In this document: positions 6,909-56,483 of the stretch, piece after piece
How positions within the stretch are numbered: the stretch's first letter is position 1
How the letters are laid out: every line of letters starts with the position of its first letter
Source: Hoyosella subflava DQS3-9A1
GTDB lineage: Bacteria; Actinomycetota; Actinomycetes; Mycobacteriales; Mycobacteriaceae
Length of the DNA stretch: 64,000 nucleotides
Direction: 5' to 3'
Assembly: GCF_000214175.1 (NCBI RefSeq)
Contig: NC_015564.1
Span: 2,294,001-2,358,000 of the forward strand
The notes under the pieces: model-generated
Seen by the model: the letters and a program-made list of their open reading frames with translations, nothing else
Databases searched by the model: none
Told to the model about the DNA's origin: nothing
Made by a program: the position numbers and the translations under genes

Positions 6909-8324
6909 ATGCCAAAAGCCAATCTCGCAGATCGAGTTTTCCTCACCGCCGACAGTGAAGAGACTCCCCAGCATGTGGCCTGCCTCGCCACCTTCATAAT
7001 CCCCGACGACGCGCCCGGCGACTACGTCCGCCGGCTCGCCGACCGCCTCCGAGCGCAGGCAACATTTGCCAGTCCCTTCAACTACAGACTTCGACGAGTT
7101 GCCCTCCGAAAGGTTGCCCCTACCTGGCAGATCGTGCCCGATGACCAGATCGACATCGACTACCACTTCAGGCATTCGGCGCTGCCCGCGCCGGGTGGAG
7201 AGCGCGAATTGGGGGTGCTGATCTCACGTCTGCATTCCAGACCACTGGACCCGACACGACCGCTCTGGGAGTACCACCTGATCGAGGGACTGGATCGAAA
7301 CCGGTTCGCACTCTATTTCAAGGTGCACCATGCGCTCATCGACGGAGTCGGGGGTGTCAAGCGCATGCAGCAAACACTTACCAGTGACCCCAGATCGGAC
7401 GAGGCGCCGGCATTGTGGACGATCGGACCGAGAGTGCGGAATCCACGCGCGGCGGCCAATGCCGCACGTGGACAGCGCATTCGCCGCGCCATGCGAGCCA
7501 CTCGCGAAGGCGCTCTCACCGCGGCAGGGCTGGCGAAGGCCGCTGTGCGGCTCGTGGCGCTGGCACAGAGAAACTCCGAGTCGGATGTTGCTGTGCCGTT
7601 CGTCGCTCCCCAGTCGGTGATCAACCGGAGAATCGGCCGGCAACGTCGGGTCGCGACCCAACTCATCGAATTCGACCTGGTCCGCCAGATCGCTTCCGCG
7701 AGTGGGGTCAAGATCAACGACGTTTTTCTCGCTGCGTGCGCCGGAGGGCTACGCCGCTACCTTCACGAACTCGACGCATTGCCCGACAAGTCACTTACCG
7801 CGGGGACACCGGTCAACATTCGAATCGACGGTGACGATACGACCACCAACGCGTTCAGCATGGTCGTCGTGAAGCTTGGCACCGAAATTGCCGACCCGCT
7901 TGTCAGATTGCGGGCCATCGCCCGTTCGAACGACGCCGCAAAAGACGAACTGCGACGGTTACCCAAGACGTTGCAGAAACTCTATCCATCGCTGTTCATG
8001 GCGCCGTTCGTCGGACAGAATCTGGTCGGAATCGGGGGCCGCACCAACCCGCCGTACAACGTCTCGATTTCGAACGTGCCCGGACCGCTCGAACCGAAGT
8101 ACCTCGCTGGCGCGCGGATGGAAGCGATGTACCCGCTGGCGCTGCTGTACCACGGCGTCGGACTGTTTGTCGCACTGTTCGCCGCGTCCGGACGATTGGG
8201 CGTCGGCTTTGTCGGAGACCGAGACGGCCTCCCCCATCTGCAGCGCCTGGCCGTTTACACCGGGGACGCGATGGACGAGCTCGCAGACGCGGTCGGGGTC
8301 ACCGCACGGGCCCTGACTCGGTGA
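6909..8324 (+). CDS. Wax ester synthase / diacylglycerol acyltransferase (WS/DGAT)
   Basis: 471 residues, the usual length for the bacterial WS/DGAT family. These enzymes transfer an acyl group from acyl-CoA to a fatty alcohol or diacylglycerol, producing wax esters or triacylglycerol. The catalytic motif HHxxxDG appears as VHHALIDGVGG near residue 138-147. The conserved PLW stretch (RPLWEYHLIEGL) precedes it, and ND (KINDVFLAACAG) and the C-terminal SNVPGP motif follow. A good AAGAAGAG ribosome-binding site lies upstream. Last gene of the operon beginning at 248, directly after a FadD, which makes acyl-CoA its likely substrate. A second member is at 39025. Some family members have little activity, so storage is inferred. 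Confidence 0.9.
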   Translation: MPKANLADRVFLTADSEETPQHVACLATFIIPDDAPGDYVRRLADRLRAQATFASPFNYRLRRVALRKVAPTWQIVPDDQIDIDYHFRHSALPAPGGERELGVLISRLHSRPLDPTRPLWEYHLIEGLDRNRFALYFKVHHALIDGVGGVKRMQQTLTSDPRSDEAPALWTIGPRVRNPRAAANAARGQRIRRAMRATREGALTAAGLAKAAVRLVALAQRNSESDVAVPFVAPQSVINRRIGRQRRVATQLIEFDLVRQIASASGVKINDVFLAACAGGLRRYLHELDALPDKSLTAGTPVNIRIDGDDTTTNAFSMVVVKLGTEIADPLVRLRAIARSNDAAKDELRRLPKTLQKLYPSLFMAPFVGQNLVGIGGRTNPPYNVSISNVPGPLEPKYLAGARMEAMYPLALLYHGVGLFVALFAASGRLGVGFVGDRDGLPHLQRLAVYTGDAMDELADAVGVTARALTR

Positions 8325-8751
8325 GCCGTGGCAACAGACCTAAGCCCGCCTTGCGTTCCCGGTGATAGGCACGGTGTGCCCGGCCTCGGCCAGCGCGGCC
8401 CGCCGCAGCTCGTCCAGTTCATGAAGGTCGTCCTCGGGCGGCGCAAGGTGCTGTTCGGGGACGGCTACCTCATGATTCGGCCCGCGCACGCCTCACGACG
8501 GTATGGACGGCCTTGGCCTTGACGACGAGACCTGCAGGCTGTATTTGGGTGGGTCACGAGGCGGTGCCAAGAGCCCCTGCCGTCAGGCGCATGCGCTAAT
8601 TGGTGCACTCTGTAACATCGAATCGAGGGCGATCAGACTAGAGAACGTCGGCATCAGGACTTCTTCACCGAGGTCGGGGAACCAATGTCCGCGCTAATCG
8701 TCCCGAAACAACTCCCCCAAGATTGAGCTAGGGCGATCAAAACTGTTGGTG
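8325..8751. other. Intergenic stretch with one weak orphan reading frame
   Basis: About 430 bp between the WS/DGAT gene and the arabinose operon, which end tail to tail. On the minus strand 8340-8489 holds a 49-codon frame starting with GTG (VRGPNHEVAVPEQHLAPPED onward, ending ITGNARRA). It has coding-like composition, but I cannot assign it. It may be the tail of a lost gene. The remainder, including 8590-8750, shows nothing I recognise: no strong hairpin, RNA gene or transposase. Confidence 0.3.
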
Positions 8752-9681
8752 TCACGTGTTCGGCCAGAAGGAACCCTCAATTCTGAACCGGAGGGTGTGG
8801 TGATCTCCCGACTCAAGCACGATCAGATCATCCTTGGAATTAAATGCATCCGGTGGACACGTCATGGGTTCGACAGCTATCCCGCGGCGGCCAAGTCTGT
8901 CGCCGGTGTAGATCTGCAGCCATGGTGCCGTCGCCGTCAGCCGGGCGGATAGCCCCGCACCGGGGTGACGGAGCACCACCTCCCATTCGTCACGGGGCAG
9001 GCCTCCGAAGGCGTGGTCGATCTGTAGGGGGCCCACCGCCCGGGCCTCACGGAAGTCGAGATCCACTTCCCCACCCGGGACCGTTCCGGTTGGCAGCAGC
9101 CGATCGTCCACCGTCACGACGCGCTCCGCCGGAACAGTGAGTATGCACTCGTCGACAGGGGCGAGGCCGCACGTCAAGTACGGATGGGATGACGCGCCGT
9201 AGGGGGCGGGAGACGCCCCGACGTTGGTGGAGGTGATCTCGGTACATAGCCCGCGGTCGGCGGTGAGGCGATAGGTGACCTCAGTTATCAGGTGGAACGG
9301 GTACCCGTATCGGGGCAGGCAGTGCAATCGGAACGTGGCTTCGCATGAGTTCAGCTCGACCGTTTCCCAGTTCACCCAGCAGCCGAAGCCGTGTAAGGCG
9401 CTGTTCGTGGCGTGCTCGTTGATGGGTAGCTCGTGTGTTCTGTCACGGAAGGAGTACCGGCCGTCCGCGATGCGGTTCGGCCAGGGCACGAGCGTCTTCC
9501 CCTCATATGCGATGGGGATCTCCGACGCCGTGACTGGAACGACGATGTCGTGTCCGCGCCAGATTAACCGCCCCAGCGCCGCACCCGAGGAAAAGACCGT
9601 CGCGCGGTAGTCGCCGGCGGCCAGAGTGTGAACCGTACCGTTTGCGGCGTCGTACGTGTCCGCAGACGGATACTCCACCAC
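8752..9681 (-). CDS. Aldose 1-epimerase family protein (mutarotase-like)
   Basis: About 309 residues of the galactose-mutarotase-like fold, interconverting alpha and beta anomers of sugars. Visible features are the N-terminal strand-rich region with WRGHDIV, the substrate-binding stretch LVPWPNRIADGRYSF (PNR is typical), INEHATNSALHGF with the conserved His, a later ASSHPYL with the second His, and EPMTCPPDAF containing the catalytic-type Glu near the C-terminus. Start choice is uncertain: tandem GTG codons at 9681 and 9678 follow a GGGGGA, while a TTG at 9717 would overlap the araA stop. Last gene of the araB-araD-araA operon, so it probably acts on arabinose anomers. Confidence 0.85.
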   Translation of the reverse strand: MVEYPSADTYDAANGTVHTLAAGDYRATVFSSGAALGRLIWRGHDIVVPVTASEIPIAYEGKTLVPWPNRIADGRYSFRDRTHELPINEHATNSALHGFGCWVNWETVELNSCEATFRLHCLPRYGYPFHLITEVTYRLTADRGLCTEITSTNVGASPAPYGASSHPYLTCGLAPVDECILTVPAERVVTVDDRLLPTGTVPGGEVDLDFREARAVGPLQIDHAFGGLPRDEWEVVLRHPGAGLSARLTATAPWLQIYTGDRLGRRGIAVEPMTCPPDAFNSKDDLIVLESGDHHTLRFRIEGSFWPNT

Positions 9682-52781: not shown

Positions 52782-53527
52782 CAGAAGATTCTTCCGTTGA
52801 GGCGGGATGTGGTGAAGGTCGGCAGAACCGGCCGGATAGGTACGGGCGGCGACCCCGCGGAGAGGTTGACCCGATGTAAGCGGGATTCGATGACTTGCCC
52901 AACTCCCATGTCCTGCAGCGGATCGCGCTCGGAATTGCCTACCGAGACGTCGAGGTTTGCGCGTCGAACTTCGATGACGTGCTCGCCCGGAGTGAACGCG
53001 ACGAGGTACGGAAGGACGCTGCCCACAACGTTGCGGTGCGGACGGCCGAGAATCGGTGGTGCGTCGTCGATGACGTCGCCGAGGGCGCCGCGCATCTCGA
53101 TGAGGGTCGCTCCTCGGCGCGTGGCCGTCGCATTGATCGCGTCACCCTCGATCGACCAGTCGATGGCGCCGAGTTTCTTCGGGTAACCGAGCACCTCACG
53201 TCCGAGGATGAGCGCGGCGTCGTCGTCGAGGATCATCCACGGACAGTGGACACCCATCGTGGCGAACGGACCGATACCGGTCTTGATGTGCACGAGAAGG
53301 CCCGCCTCGTGATACACCGAGCCGTAGTTGCAATCGGGGAACCAGGCGCAAAACAGGTCTGCCGTGGCCGGACCTGTAAGGGTGACGCCCGCAGGCAGCC
53401 ACGGTTGCATCTTGTCGGAGTCGATCTCGACAACCGCGGTCAGATAGTGCGCATCGCGGTAGATGTATCCACGATCCGGTAGTGCCGCTATCCCGATTGC
53501 ATGTTTCAGTCCGTCGATCGTGTTCAC
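52781..53527 (-). CDS. Acetoacetate decarboxylase-family protein
   Basis: 248 residues. VTLTGPATADLFCAWFPDCN near 48-67 and REVLGYPKKLGAIDW near 112-126 are the hallmark of the ADC fold, with GYPKK providing the Schiff-base lysine region. The upstream EAGLLVHI stretch also fits. GTG start overlaps the stop of the FMO-SDR gene. Many actinobacterial members sit in steroid or lipid clusters and probably do not act on acetoacetate itself. They may decarboxylate or hydrolyse larger beta-keto acids. Exact reaction unknown. Confidence 0.87.
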   Translation of the reverse strand: MNTIDGLKHAIGIAALPDRGYIYRDAHYLTAVVEIDSDKMQPWLPAGVTLTGPATADLFCAWFPDCNYGSVYHEAGLLVHIKTGIGPFATMGVHCPWMILDDDAALILGREVLGYPKKLGAIDWSIEGDAINATATRRGATLIEMRGALGDVIDDAPPILGRPHRNVVGSVLPYLVAFTPGEHVIEVRRANLDVSVGNSERDPLQDMGVGQVIESRLHRVNLSAGSPPVPIRPVLPTFTTSRLNGRIF

Positions 53528-55641
53528 GACAGCCGTCCGTAGACCATGCGCAGGATCGGGTTCGACACACTGCTGGGTGTGAGAGCCGCGCCGACGGTCT
53601 GAGCCTTGGCGAACAACCCGGGCACAATGCGGCGCCTGCCGTCGGCGAGTCCGTCGATTGCGGTCTTGGCCGCCTCCTCAGCATCGACCCAGAGGAAATC
53701 GGGAAGCATTTTTTCGAGCGACGGGATGCTGGCGGCTTCGGCGAACTCGGTGTGCACGGGTCCGGGCGCGAGCAGTGAGCAGGTCACTCCGGTACCGGCG
53801 AGTTCACCATGCAGCGATTCGGCGAACATGTTCGCGAACGCCTTGCTCGCGGAGTAGGTCGCGTTGTTGGGGCTCGGCTGATTTCCGGCCGTCGATCCGG
53901 TGATGAGGATGGCCCCGCTGCGACGCGCGATCATCCCCGGAAGAACGGCGACGGTGAGATCGTGGACGGCGTTGACATTGAGCGACACCTGATTGCGTTC
54001 GGCATCGGCGTCCAGATCAACGAGTGGCCCATAGGTGGCCGAGCCTGCGTTGTTGCAGAGAATCGCGATCTCCCGACTGGCAAGTTCGGCAGCGAGCTTC
54101 GCGCGCGATTCGGCATCGGACAGGTCGCATGACATCACTTCGACGTTGACGCCGTGGTCGGTGACCAGGCGCGCGGCGAGCTCGGCGAGGCGCTGTTTGC
54201 GGCGTGCCACAAGGATCAGCGAGTAGCCACGTGCCGCGAGGTTCTCGGCGAGGGCTGCGCCGATTCCCGAGGATGCGCCGGTGACCACGGCAGGCCGGGC
54301 GGGATTGGGCTTGGGCAGAGACATCTTTTCCTCCGTCAAAGGATTTCGTGGAAGTACGGGGACCGCCTGGCTGGGAAGCCCACGTGAGATCCGGTCGACA
54401 CTCACGTAGGTGTTGATGAGGCGGCGAAGCACGGCAACGTCGAGGAGGATCTCGGATTGTCCCGCGAGCATCGTCGACTGTGGCTTGCGGATCTTCGCGA
54501 GCAGGTTCGACAACGGAACCGGAACCTCGCCCTGAATCAGCGCGATTTTGGTGATGAGCCGAGCTCCCTCGGTGATGAGCTTGCCGGCGCCGGCTCGCGG
54601 CGCGACGTTTCCGAAGAAGTAAAGGTTCGCGAGCTTTGGTGGTACGACGTGCGCGAACAGCCCGGGCTGACCGTTTTCCCACTCGAGCAGGTCAGGCTGG
54701 AGGAACGGGAAAGCGGTCCGGAATCCGGTGGCCCAGAGGATCGTGTCGTATTCGCCGGTCGAGCCGTCGACGAAGTGCACAGCCTGACCGTCGAACCGTT
54801 TGATCTCCGGCCGGGGCTTCACCTTCCCGTGGAGAACCGCGTACGGCATCGTGCTGTTGACGGTGACGTCTTTGTCGAACAAGTCATGGCCGGGCTTGGG
54901 CAGACCGTAGCGCTGATACGGACCGAAGGTCAGCATGAGCCCGGCCTTGAAGACAGCTTTCTGAACAGATCGCGGCGCCCAGATCTGGTCCAAAGCGGAG
55001 ACCGGGACGCCCCACATCGTCTTGGGGATGAACCAGTAGCCGGTGCGCATGGACAGATCCGCGGAGCCGAACGCGTTTGCGGATTCAACCGCCAAATCGC
55101 ACCCGGAATTGCCCGCGCCGACAACCAGCACCCGCCTGCCCTCGACATCGGAGGGGTTCCGGTACTGCTTGGAATGGATCTGCTTTCCCGTGAACTGACC
55201 CGGATACGTCGGGATGTTGAGCGCCCAGTAATGCCCGTTCGCGACCACGACGGCGGCGTACTGCCGTACTTCGCCGGAAGAAAGGCGCACTGCCCAACCC
55301 GCCATACCCGTGGCATCGATCGGGGTGACCTCGGTGACTTCGGTGTTGAACGTGATGCGCGGGGTGACGCCGAAATGGTCGGCGTAATCCTGCAGGTAGG
55401 CGCGCATCTGCGCGGCCGAGCAGAACATCGGATAGTCGTCGGGCATCGAGTAATCCGAGTACGCCGAGGCCTGCTTCGAGCTGATCATCGTCGTTGAGTC
55501 GTAAACGCCGTGAGCCCAGTTGCCGCCGACGTGGTCCGTCGCTTCGAAGTGGTCGTAGTCGAGCCCGGCGTCGACGAACGCCTTCGCAATTCCGAGGCCG
55601 GCGTATCCGGCACCGATAACGCAGTACCGACGTTCGCGCAT
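53524..55641 (-). CDS. Flavin monooxygenase fused to a short-chain dehydrogenase
   Basis: 705 codons in one frame. Residues 1 to about 425 are a class B flavin monooxygenase: FAD motif CVIGAGYAGLGIA, FTGKQIHSKQY (FxGxxxHxxxY) near 165 and NADPH motif VVGAGNSGCD near 190. Residues 440-705 are a complete classical SDR: TGASSGIG, NNAG near 540, Ser in ITGSTAG and YSASK near 610. Between them NPLTEEKMSLPK contains an ATG at 54324 preceded by GGAGGAAAAG, a strong ribosome-binding site, so a separate 266-residue SDR is probably also made. First gene of an overlapping operon with the decarboxylase-like and OYE genes. Confidence 0.88.
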   Translation of the reverse strand: MRERRYCVIGAGYAGLGIAKAFVDAGLDYDHFEATDHVGGNWAHGVYDSTTMISSKQASAYSDYSMPDDYPMFCSAAQMRAYLQDYADHFGVTPRITFNTEVTEVTPIDATGMAGWAVRLSSGEVRQYAAVVVANGHYWALNIPTYPGQFTGKQIHSKQYRNPSDVEGRRVLVVGAGNSGCDLAVESANAFGSADLSMRTGYWFIPKTMWGVPVSALDQIWAPRSVQKAVFKAGLMLTFGPYQRYGLPKPGHDLFDKDVTVNSTMPYAVLHGKVKPRPEIKRFDGQAVHFVDGSTGEYDTILWATGFRTAFPFLQPDLLEWENGQPGLFAHVVPPKLANLYFFGNVAPRAGAGKLITEGARLITKIALIQGEVPVPLSNLLAKIRKPQSTMLAGQSEILLDVAVLRRLINTYVSVDRISRGLPSQAVPVLPRNPLTEEKMSLPKPNPARPAVVTGASSGIGAALAENLAARGYSLILVARRKQRLAELAARLVTDHGVNVEVMSCDLSDAESRAKLAAELASREIAILCNNAGSATYGPLVDLDADAERNQVSLNVNAVHDLTVAVLPGMIARRSGAILITGSTAGNQPSPNNATYSASKAFANMFAESLHGELAGTGVTCSLLAPGPVHTEFAEAASIPSLEKMLPDFLWVDAEEAAKTAIDGLADGRRRIVPGLFAKAQTVGAALTPSSVSNPILRMVYGRLS
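54322..54340 (-). promoter_or_regulatory. Internal ribosome-binding site and start for a free SDR
   Basis: On the minus strand GGAGGAAAAG directly precedes ATG (top base 54324) within the fused frame. This is a better site than many true starts in the window, so the SDR part (53524-54324) is probably translated on its own as well as in the fusion. Confidence 0.6.
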
Positions 55642-55660
55642 CGATTGCTCCTTCTAAATT

Positions 55661-55676
55661 GCTACACCAATGTAGC
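55661..55676. promoter_or_regulatory. Perfect inverted repeat GCTACA-CCAA-TGTAGC, candidate TetR operator
   Basis: A 16-bp palindrome with a 4-bp spacer, 20 bp upstream of the FMO-SDR start and 58 bp before the small leader frame of the TetR gene. It sits in the divergent promoter region, where the TetR at 55851 would repress both sides. Confidence 0.75.
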
Positions 55677-55850: not shown

Positions 55851-56483
55851 ATGACATCAGGCGCCACCCGGAGCGGCTCAAAGAAGCGGCCTTACGCTCC
55901 CCGCATGGCACCTGAAGAGCGACGCGAGCAGATCCTCGATGCCGCTCTCGATGTCATCGTCGAGCACGGCGTGGGACGGGTGACCGTCGATGGTCTCGCC
56001 AAAGCGATCGGCGTGACCCGGCCCGTGATTCACAGCCAGTTCACTGACAGTAACGACATCCTCCGGACGGTTCTTAAACGCGAAGAAGCCCGCGCACTTG
56101 CCCAGTTGACCGAAGTGTTCGAATCGGTCGGTCAGATTCCGACCCCAGAGAACATCGCCGAGATGATCCGGGCCTATCTCCGTGCGGTTCTCGCTGAACC
56201 GAAACGTTGGCGGGCGATTCTGCTGCCAGCCGGGTACCCGCCTGCGTTCCGCAAGCGGTTGCAGCGCGGGCAGAAACTGATCACCGACATCTTCGAGCAG
56301 ATCGCACGCGCGTCGATGCCACCAAACACCGACGTCGAAATGTTGGCAAAGGCTCTACTGGCCCTGCTTCTCGATGCGGGCCGCATCGCGCTCGAGGAAC
56401 CGGACGACTTTCCGCCAGAACGAATCGCATCGTTCACGGCCTCAATGGCGGCACGGGTCCTCAGCCACGACCAGCAAGTTTGA
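55851..56483 (+). CDS. TetR-family transcriptional regulator
   Basis: 210 residues. The helix-turn-helix is RREQILDAALDVIVEHGVGR followed by VTVDGLAKAIGVTRPVIHSQ near 28-62. VIHSQF replaces the usual LYRHF/LYYHF. A basic N-terminus (SGSKKRPYAPRM) precedes it. The C-terminal part is the variable ligand domain. AAGGAG lies upstream. Divergent from the FMO-SDR/decarboxylase/OYE operon, with a perfect inverted repeat between, so it probably represses that operon in response to its substrate. Confidence 0.9.
   Translation: MTSGATRSGSKKRPYAPRMAPEERREQILDAALDVIVEHGVGRVTVDGLAKAIGVTRPVIHSQFTDSNDILRTVLKREEARALAQLTEVFESVGQIPTPENIAEMIRAYLRAVLAEPKRWRAILLPAGYPPAFRKRLQRGQKLITDIFEQIARASMPPNTDVEMLAKALLALLLDAGRIALEEPDDFPPERIASFTASMAARVLSHDQQV

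Follow-up and report, generated by a model that had tools for sequence, protein, structure and literature searches.

Among the closest described counterparts of the gene reported here are engineered enzymes. Fusions of alcohol dehydrogenases (ADHs) or ene-reductases with Baeyer-Villiger monooxygenases (BVMOs) serve cascade reactions and cofactor recycling, as described in PMC9354712, and those of the CHMO-ADH type place a dehydrogenase and an NADPH-using flavin monooxygenase on one polypeptide (PMC9354712). In this work we describe a protein of similar composition, which unites a flavin monooxygenase (FMO) and a short-chain dehydrogenase (SDR) and is encoded within a 64,000-nucleotide stretch of the genome of Hoyosella subflava DQS3-9A1 (contig NC_015564.1, positions 2,294,001 to 2,358,000; hereafter the window). 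It differs from the engineered enzymes in being natural, whereas their linkers were designed, and in carrying an FMO-type motif instead of the type I BVMO motif. No published description of a natural FMO-SDR or BVMO-SDR fusion, or of the set of operon genes to which this one belongs, was found among open-licence PMC papers.

H. subflava is an oil-field bacterium, and we take Amycolicicoccus subflavus DQS3-9A1 to be this species, now placed under Hoyosella. Its genome comprises three contigs (4.86 Mb), the window lying on the one of 4,738,809 bp. The sequence comparisons make it probable that the gene is a genuine lineage-specific fusion within a conserved TetR-controlled oxidoreductase operon, that it arose by a change of frame in the spacer preceding the SDR start, and that it gives rise to a 705-residue enzyme together with some free SDR.

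Other described or sequenced relatives correspond to one half of the protein or to both halves as separate proteins. Flavin monooxygenases of solved structure (8z12-8z17, 432 aa; the reconstructed ancestral FMOs 6sem and 6sek) are related to residues 1-391 at most, with E-values down to 6.3e-56; unlike the fusion, their chains measure 432-535 aa, and the match is confined to the FMO half. In Tsukamurella (G077) and other genera of the family, orthologous enzymes are encoded in an operon with the same tetR, acetoacetate-decarboxylase-like (ADC) and old-yellow-enzyme-type (OYE) genes and an operator-like palindrome. In those operons, by contrast, the FMO and the SDR are two proteins, their genes being either coupled through an ATGA overlap or separated by the OYE gene.

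The fused gene and its conservation in Hoyosella

A single open frame of 705 codons, at positions 53524-55641 on the minus strand of the window, contains both the FMO and SDR domains; it starts with the ATG at 55641, which is preceded by AAGGAG (Table 1). Residues 4-365 matched the Pfam FMO-like family (1.2e-54; 186.2 bits vs a gathering score of 22) and residues 451-636 matched adh_short (9.6e-44; 149.6 bits vs 26.6). Pattern searches located GAGYAG at residue 10, FTGKQIHSKQY at 150, GAGNSG at 175 and LWATGF at 302 in the first half, and TGASSGIG at 454, NNAG at 530 and YSASK at 596 in the second; these are the customary motifs of FMOs and SDRs. By its profile match, two Rossmann sites and FxGxxxHxxx(Y/F), the first half belongs to the class B flavin monooxygenases, with an activity that is predicted, and by its TGxxxGxG, NNAG and YxxxK motifs the second half is a classical short-chain dehydrogenase. 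F150, G152, H156 and Y160 were unchanged in all eight aligned FMO rows. The type I BVMO fingerprint, FxGxxxHxxxW(P/D), was absent from the FMO half, where the motif ends in Tyr and not in Trp; oxidation of a ketone by an FMO-type enzyme may nevertheless be compatible with this absence. The protein also fell below the NCBIfam equivalog cut-offs for ArsO and trimethylamine monooxygenase (116.6 vs 425 and 83.8 vs 675, respectively). The original prediction, made from the window alone, had described two complete enzymes with all key motifs, and profile and pattern searches agree on this; its estimate of about 20 joining residues was a fair one, the linker measuring 27 residues (413-439) from the last well-conserved FMO helix to the SDR methionine.

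The same in-frame fusion is present in H. altamirensis (G002), with 90% identity over 704 residues aligned without a gap. Nei-Gojobori estimates over the 704 codons of the two species gave ratios of nonsynonymous to synonymous change (dN/dS) of 0.085 for residues 1-412 (FMO), 0.29 for residues 413-439 (linker) and 0.109 for residues 440-704 (SDR), with synonymous divergence (dS) of 0.46 in the FMO and 0.63 in the SDR. Low dN/dS over a gapless alignment indicates that the fused frame is maintained. The fusion is thus in frame, constrained in both halves and shared by descent between the two species and not specific to a strain; a fusion fixed in the lineage was one of the two possibilities raised in the original prediction. 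The set for this genus comprised three genomes; the third (G001) gave no FMO match at 1e-75, and its sole match at 1e-60 was an SDR that groups with CmrA.

A sequencing or assembly error masking a frame break between two genes could in principle produce such a frame, and false fusions of this kind exist: in the Tsukamurella-group genome G160, a 703-codon frame arises from a shift of the FMO near residue 256. In H. subflava, unlike G160, the FMO half stays in its correct frame right to its end. The genome was read by 454 plus Solexa, as stated in PMC3743902, and the genes of the two species, which were deposited separately, give a gapless alignment of 704 residues. A hidden stop codon, the caveat attached to the original prediction, is ruled out by this second species, and an error of any such kind is scarcely credible. 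The fusion at this locus is real and maintained, and its ancestry can still be seen.

Gene arrangements in relatives and the change of frame

Relatives were sought with FMO residues 1-424 as query in 401 genomes of the family (22 with a match at E ≤ 1e-75) and 397 of the order (4 at 1e-90), as well as in the genera of the hits, where 6 of 16 genomes matched at 1e-75 and 3 of 59, 6 of 150, 1 of 28 and 1 of 4 at 1e-100. Only the best first-look candidates were scored, four per genome in the family and order searches and eleven in the search of the 150-genome genus. Matches whose best FMO piece was at least 53% identical were taken as orthologues, the others, at most 45% identical, being excluded. 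Orthologues occurred in 14 of the 401 family genomes searched, and 19 orthologous loci were compiled: two in Hoyosella and, under our own group labels, six in g30, three in g9, six in g23, one in g24 and one in g16. In a phylum-wide sample of 396 genomes, among the matches listed only the genome of H. subflava itself gave a full-length one; two candidates were scored per genome there, so that a distant fusion could be missed. Plasmid records gave nine matches, none of them covering 80% of the query.

Two gene orders were observed. Seven of the 19 loci (g16 and g23; L074, L077 and L089-L093) have the order FMO, OYE, SDR, ADC, and the other twelve have FMO, SDR, ADC, OYE. Among these twelve, the FMO and SDR are separate genes with an ATGA overlap at nine loci and are fused in frame at three, namely both Hoyosella loci and a strongly diverged locus of the Tsukamurella-group genome G201 (L078, about 7307-9373; 53% and 52% identity). 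Pairs in which stop and start lie within 10 nt of each other, and in which this is conserved, qualify as translationally coupled (PMC3711429); the ATGA pairs, present at 9 of the 19 loci, fall within this definition, their coupling being a prediction. The nine include the G160 locus (L079; 6035-7241 and 8882-10020) in spite of the slip inside its FMO. There, FMO and OYE each match in two pieces in different frames, which reflects decay or sequencing error; its 703-codon frame, which mimics the fusion, was rejected as an additional one, since the FMO shifts frame near residue 256 and, followed in the frame used beyond the slip, ends at the TGA of the ATGA. The original prediction had called for a survey of relatives and had named split genes in all close relatives as the contrary outcome. 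This contrary outcome did not occur, as the congener H. altamirensis carries the fusion, although separate genes are the rule in other genera (16 of 17 loci).

Comparison of the junctions suggests how the two frames came together. At all nine ATGA loci the FMO frame differs from that of the SDR and terminates in the TGA of the ATGA. The GAG of the ribosome-binding site shares the FMO frame, from which the SDR is offset by two bases, as checked by script. In both Hoyosella species the SDR is in phase with this GAG and with the FMO. GGAG and ATG are 11 nt apart at eight ATGA loci and 8 nt apart at the ninth, versus 6 nt at the two Hoyosella loci. Given this difference in spacing and the switch in phase, the frame change maps to the spacer between the ribosome-binding site and the ATG. 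In addition, the coupled loci have AGY or AAY as second SDR codon where both Hoyosella species have TCN, and the old TGA is therefore gone; its former position reads TGT, out of frame. The recent loss of a stop codon, one of the two origins envisaged in the original prediction, is contradicted by this frame comparison, because with nine of nine ATGA loci out of frame a net change of frame is needed; simple stop-codon loss was accordingly ruled out.

The proposed course of events would start from an FMO gene and an SDR gene that were distinct but shared an ATGA stop/start overlap. The spacer between the SDR ribosome-binding site and its ATG would have become 6 nt, by which the SDR would have entered the FMO frame, and the variable tail of the FMO would have taken the role of linker; both the direction and the order of these steps are as we infer them. 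The product would most likely be a 705-residue bifunctional NADP(H) enzyme, and the surviving SDR start and ribosome-binding site would permit some free 266-residue SDR to be made by internal initiation. The fusion appears to have been caught with its likely precursor still visible in sister genera, in the form of an ATGA overlap, a ribosome-binding site in the same phase and a spacer of another length. It would thus offer a simple way for coupled genes of an operon to merge into a single protein without losing the start of the second gene. In other respects this is an ordinary fusion between neighbours in an operon, genuine but modest as a case.

Internal start and history of the fusion

The strength of Shine-Dalgarno sites was estimated by modelling how the 15 nt before each start codon pair with the anti-Shine-Dalgarno core. 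Codon 440 of the fused frame is the ATG at 54324; the letters directly upstream of it are ACGGAGGAAAAG, and the product from there would have 266 aa. Its site (-9.5 kcal/mol) is the strongest among the 52 internal in-frame ATGs of eight local genes (runner-up, -6.6), and all eight local gene starts, which score from -3.5 to -7.6, are weaker, including that of the fused gene itself (-7.3). When all 1662 ATGs of the window were scored, counting both strands, about 1.1% did as well. The strong ribosome-binding site noticed in the original prediction therefore stands. The signal is supported as strong enough for the production of free SDR and coincides with the point where the separate SDR gene begins in coupled relatives, and the internal start of the fused gene is probably retained and usable.

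Several points weigh against this account of the products and origin of the gene. The internal site of H. altamirensis, where ATG and GGAG are retained at the junction, is weaker (-6.6 kcal/mol), and no excess of synonymous conservation was found near the internal start between the two Hoyosella species. With this weaker site, and with synonymous change that is not reduced there, the internal start may be a relic. A structure model built from eight rows (pLDDT 49.9, pTM 0.40) was too poor for domain contacts or channelling, and at this low confidence it gives no information on either. Regarding origin, Hoyosella groups with the coupled locus G198 (84/77) in the tree of the SDR on its own but not in the concatenated tree, and the trees are compatible with two fusions, with one shared fusion or with an early fusion that was later split.

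The first of these points leads to a reading in which only the 705-residue fusion is made and the internal ATG and its ribosome-binding site are relics, tolerated as acceptable linker codons. It has a substantial chance of being right, if somewhat below an even one. The fused locus of G201 fits it, since CTG there replaces the ATG of the SDR, the ribosome-binding site is poor (-2.6) and the nearby in-frame GTG and TTG codons score -4.1 or weaker, so that free SDR seems dispensable there. A TGA persists out of frame at this junction. Against it, the Met440 site outdoes the 51 other internal ATGs and the fused gene's own start, and ATG and GGAG have been kept in both Hoyosella species despite the synonymous divergence given above.

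The order of events was addressed with trees in which the linker columns were kept. Both the FMO tree and the concatenated tree separate Hoyosella from G201; the union of the three fused loci was not rejected (approximately unbiased test, p = 0.081 for FMO, 0.406 for SDR and 0.251 for the concatenation). In the concatenated tree the loci with the order FMO, OYE, SDR, ADC group on their own, and Hoyosella and G201 both lie outside the nine coupled loci. This last placement would agree with the fusion being the older state of the FMO-SDR-ADC-OYE order, with OYE having left its slot between FMO and SDR, where it is found at the seven loci of the other order, and with the ATGA pairs resulting from a later split. 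However, such a split would have to yield a perfect ATGA overlap and a good ribosome-binding site, and a history with two fusions is no longer than one with a split. Hoyosella is separated by a moderate branch (86/82), the branch of G201 is long, and the placement of Hoyosella with the coupled G198 in the SDR tree also speaks against this order of events. We thus consider fusion first unlikely, and retain the coupled pair as the probable ancestor.

The SDR half, the operon and its possible function

The mycolate reductase CmrA (Rv2509) is a described enzyme close to the SDR half. The wider family of Rv2509 is defined by GxxSGIG, RR and CNNAG motifs and a C-terminal extension, RR being tied to NADP(H) binding (PMC7065075). 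The SDR half shares this subfamily, with TGASSGIG, ARRK and CNNAG, the active-site S-Y-K and an aligned C terminus, and its RR pair fits NADP(H) binding. Its best NCBIfam match was NF040690 (mycolate_SDR), over the whole domain, with the profile aligned to 264 of 265, and it shares 54.9% identity with a cmrA-annotated SDR from a plasmid record of Tsukamurella tyrosinosolvens. These likenesses would suit a SDR half that is the mycolate reductase of the organism, and hence a gene belonging to mycolic acid synthesis. Nevertheless, the fused protein scored 349.8 bits, under the curated cut-off of 380, while another copy in the same genome (C3:1072991-1073794) passes it with 428.9; among the CmrA-like rows, only L033 was scored with this profile. 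Furthermore, a tree of 14 operon SDRs (all of the 19 but five later ones of g23) and 27 of the 29 CmrA-like loci (L006-L034) separates the two sets with 100/100 support, and FMO orthologues are found in just 14 of 401 family genomes. A mycolate reductase identity, very improbable on these grounds, was rejected on the cut-off and the tree. Because the mycolate reductase of H. subflava is encoded elsewhere, the fused SDR is an operon-specific paralogue, in a separate clade and, unlike CmrA, joined to an FMO.

The features of the locus are given in Table 1. The ADC gene starts with GTG and overlaps the SDR stop by 4 nt (GTGA), and the OYE start overlaps the ADC stop by 1 nt (TGATG). As these junctions still overlap, the operon is tightly packed throughout.

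Table 1. Features of the fused gene and its operon, in window coordinates
Feature	Position	Strand	Basis
Divergent TetR-family regulator	55851..56483	+	TetR_N 5.2e-9
Palindrome GCTACA-N4-TGTAGC between tetR and fused gene, likely TetR operator	55661..55676	.	pattern search
AAGGAG, ribosome-binding site of fused gene	55648..55653	-	modelled pairing -7.3 kcal/mol
FMO half, residues 1-412, class B flavin monooxygenase	54406..55641	-	two GxGxxG sites, FxGxxxHxxxY, ATGF
GGAGG, ribosome-binding site of internal start, 5 nt upstream of ATG	54330..54334	-	sequence, -9.5 kcal/mol
Linker, residues 413-439	54325..54405	-	tail comparison; corresponds, where the genes are split, to the variable C-terminal tail of the FMO
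Internal ATG, Met440, where the SDR gene begins in relatives with split genes	54322..54324	-	locus comparison
SDR half, residues 440-705 plus stop, mycolate-reductase-like paralogue	53524..54324	-	adh_short 9.6e-44
ADC, acetoacetate-decarboxylase-like protein, 248 aa	52781..53527	-	PF06314 6.1e-31
OYE, old-yellow-enzyme-type FMN oxidoreductase, 401 aa	51576..52781	-	PF00724 1.5e-50

SDR, ADC and OYE accompany the FMO at all 19 orthologous loci, the window included, and so the FMO and a mycolate-reductase-like SDR are tied to one operon that recurs across several genera of the family, so that whatever is learned about one of the two enzymes bears on its partner. The FMO-like and SDR families commonly use NADP(H). 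Judging from the enzyme families, the SDR would most likely convert an alcohol or a beta-hydroxy compound into a ketone or back, and the FMO would oxygenate the ketone or another soft centre, most likely as steps of an inducible pathway that acts on a lipid-like or terpenoid-like compound. The mix of enzymes in the operon suggests alcohol, ketone and ester chemistry on an enone or beta-keto substrate. A bolder proposal is that of a cofactor-recycling cascade, in which the SDR would oxidise an alcohol with NADP+ and pass ketone and NADPH to the FMO for conversion into an ester or lactone, the internal start would set the ratio of free SDR to fusion, and the arrangement would have been reached twice, in Hoyosella and in the G201 lineage, from a coupled pair. 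We regard it as unlikely; if true, the protein would be a natural version of the engineered ADH-monooxygenase fusions, with an ene-reductase in the same operon.

The divergent gene for the TetR-family regulator is present at 18 of the 19 loci (window included); the exception is G201, whose contig breaks off about 0.9 kb beyond the FMO, and no operator-like palindrome was seen upstream of the FMO in that genome. The palindrome of the window is its only match to CTACA-N2..8-TGTAG in 64 kb. The strict form, CTACA-N4/5-TGTAG, lies upstream of the FMO at 14 of the 19 loci (the window, L068-L072, L074, L076, L077 and L089-L093) and a one-base variant at four further ones, with two or three copies at nine of the 19. 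It is the probable TetR operator, shared across the operon family.

Outside the set of orthologous loci, one genome (G010; L080, 7707-5798, minus strand) encodes a more distant FMO (41% identity), followed directly downstream, in a different frame, by a protein weakly related to the SDR (28%). Neighbouring FMO and SDR genes may thus be a wider habit that extends beyond this operon.

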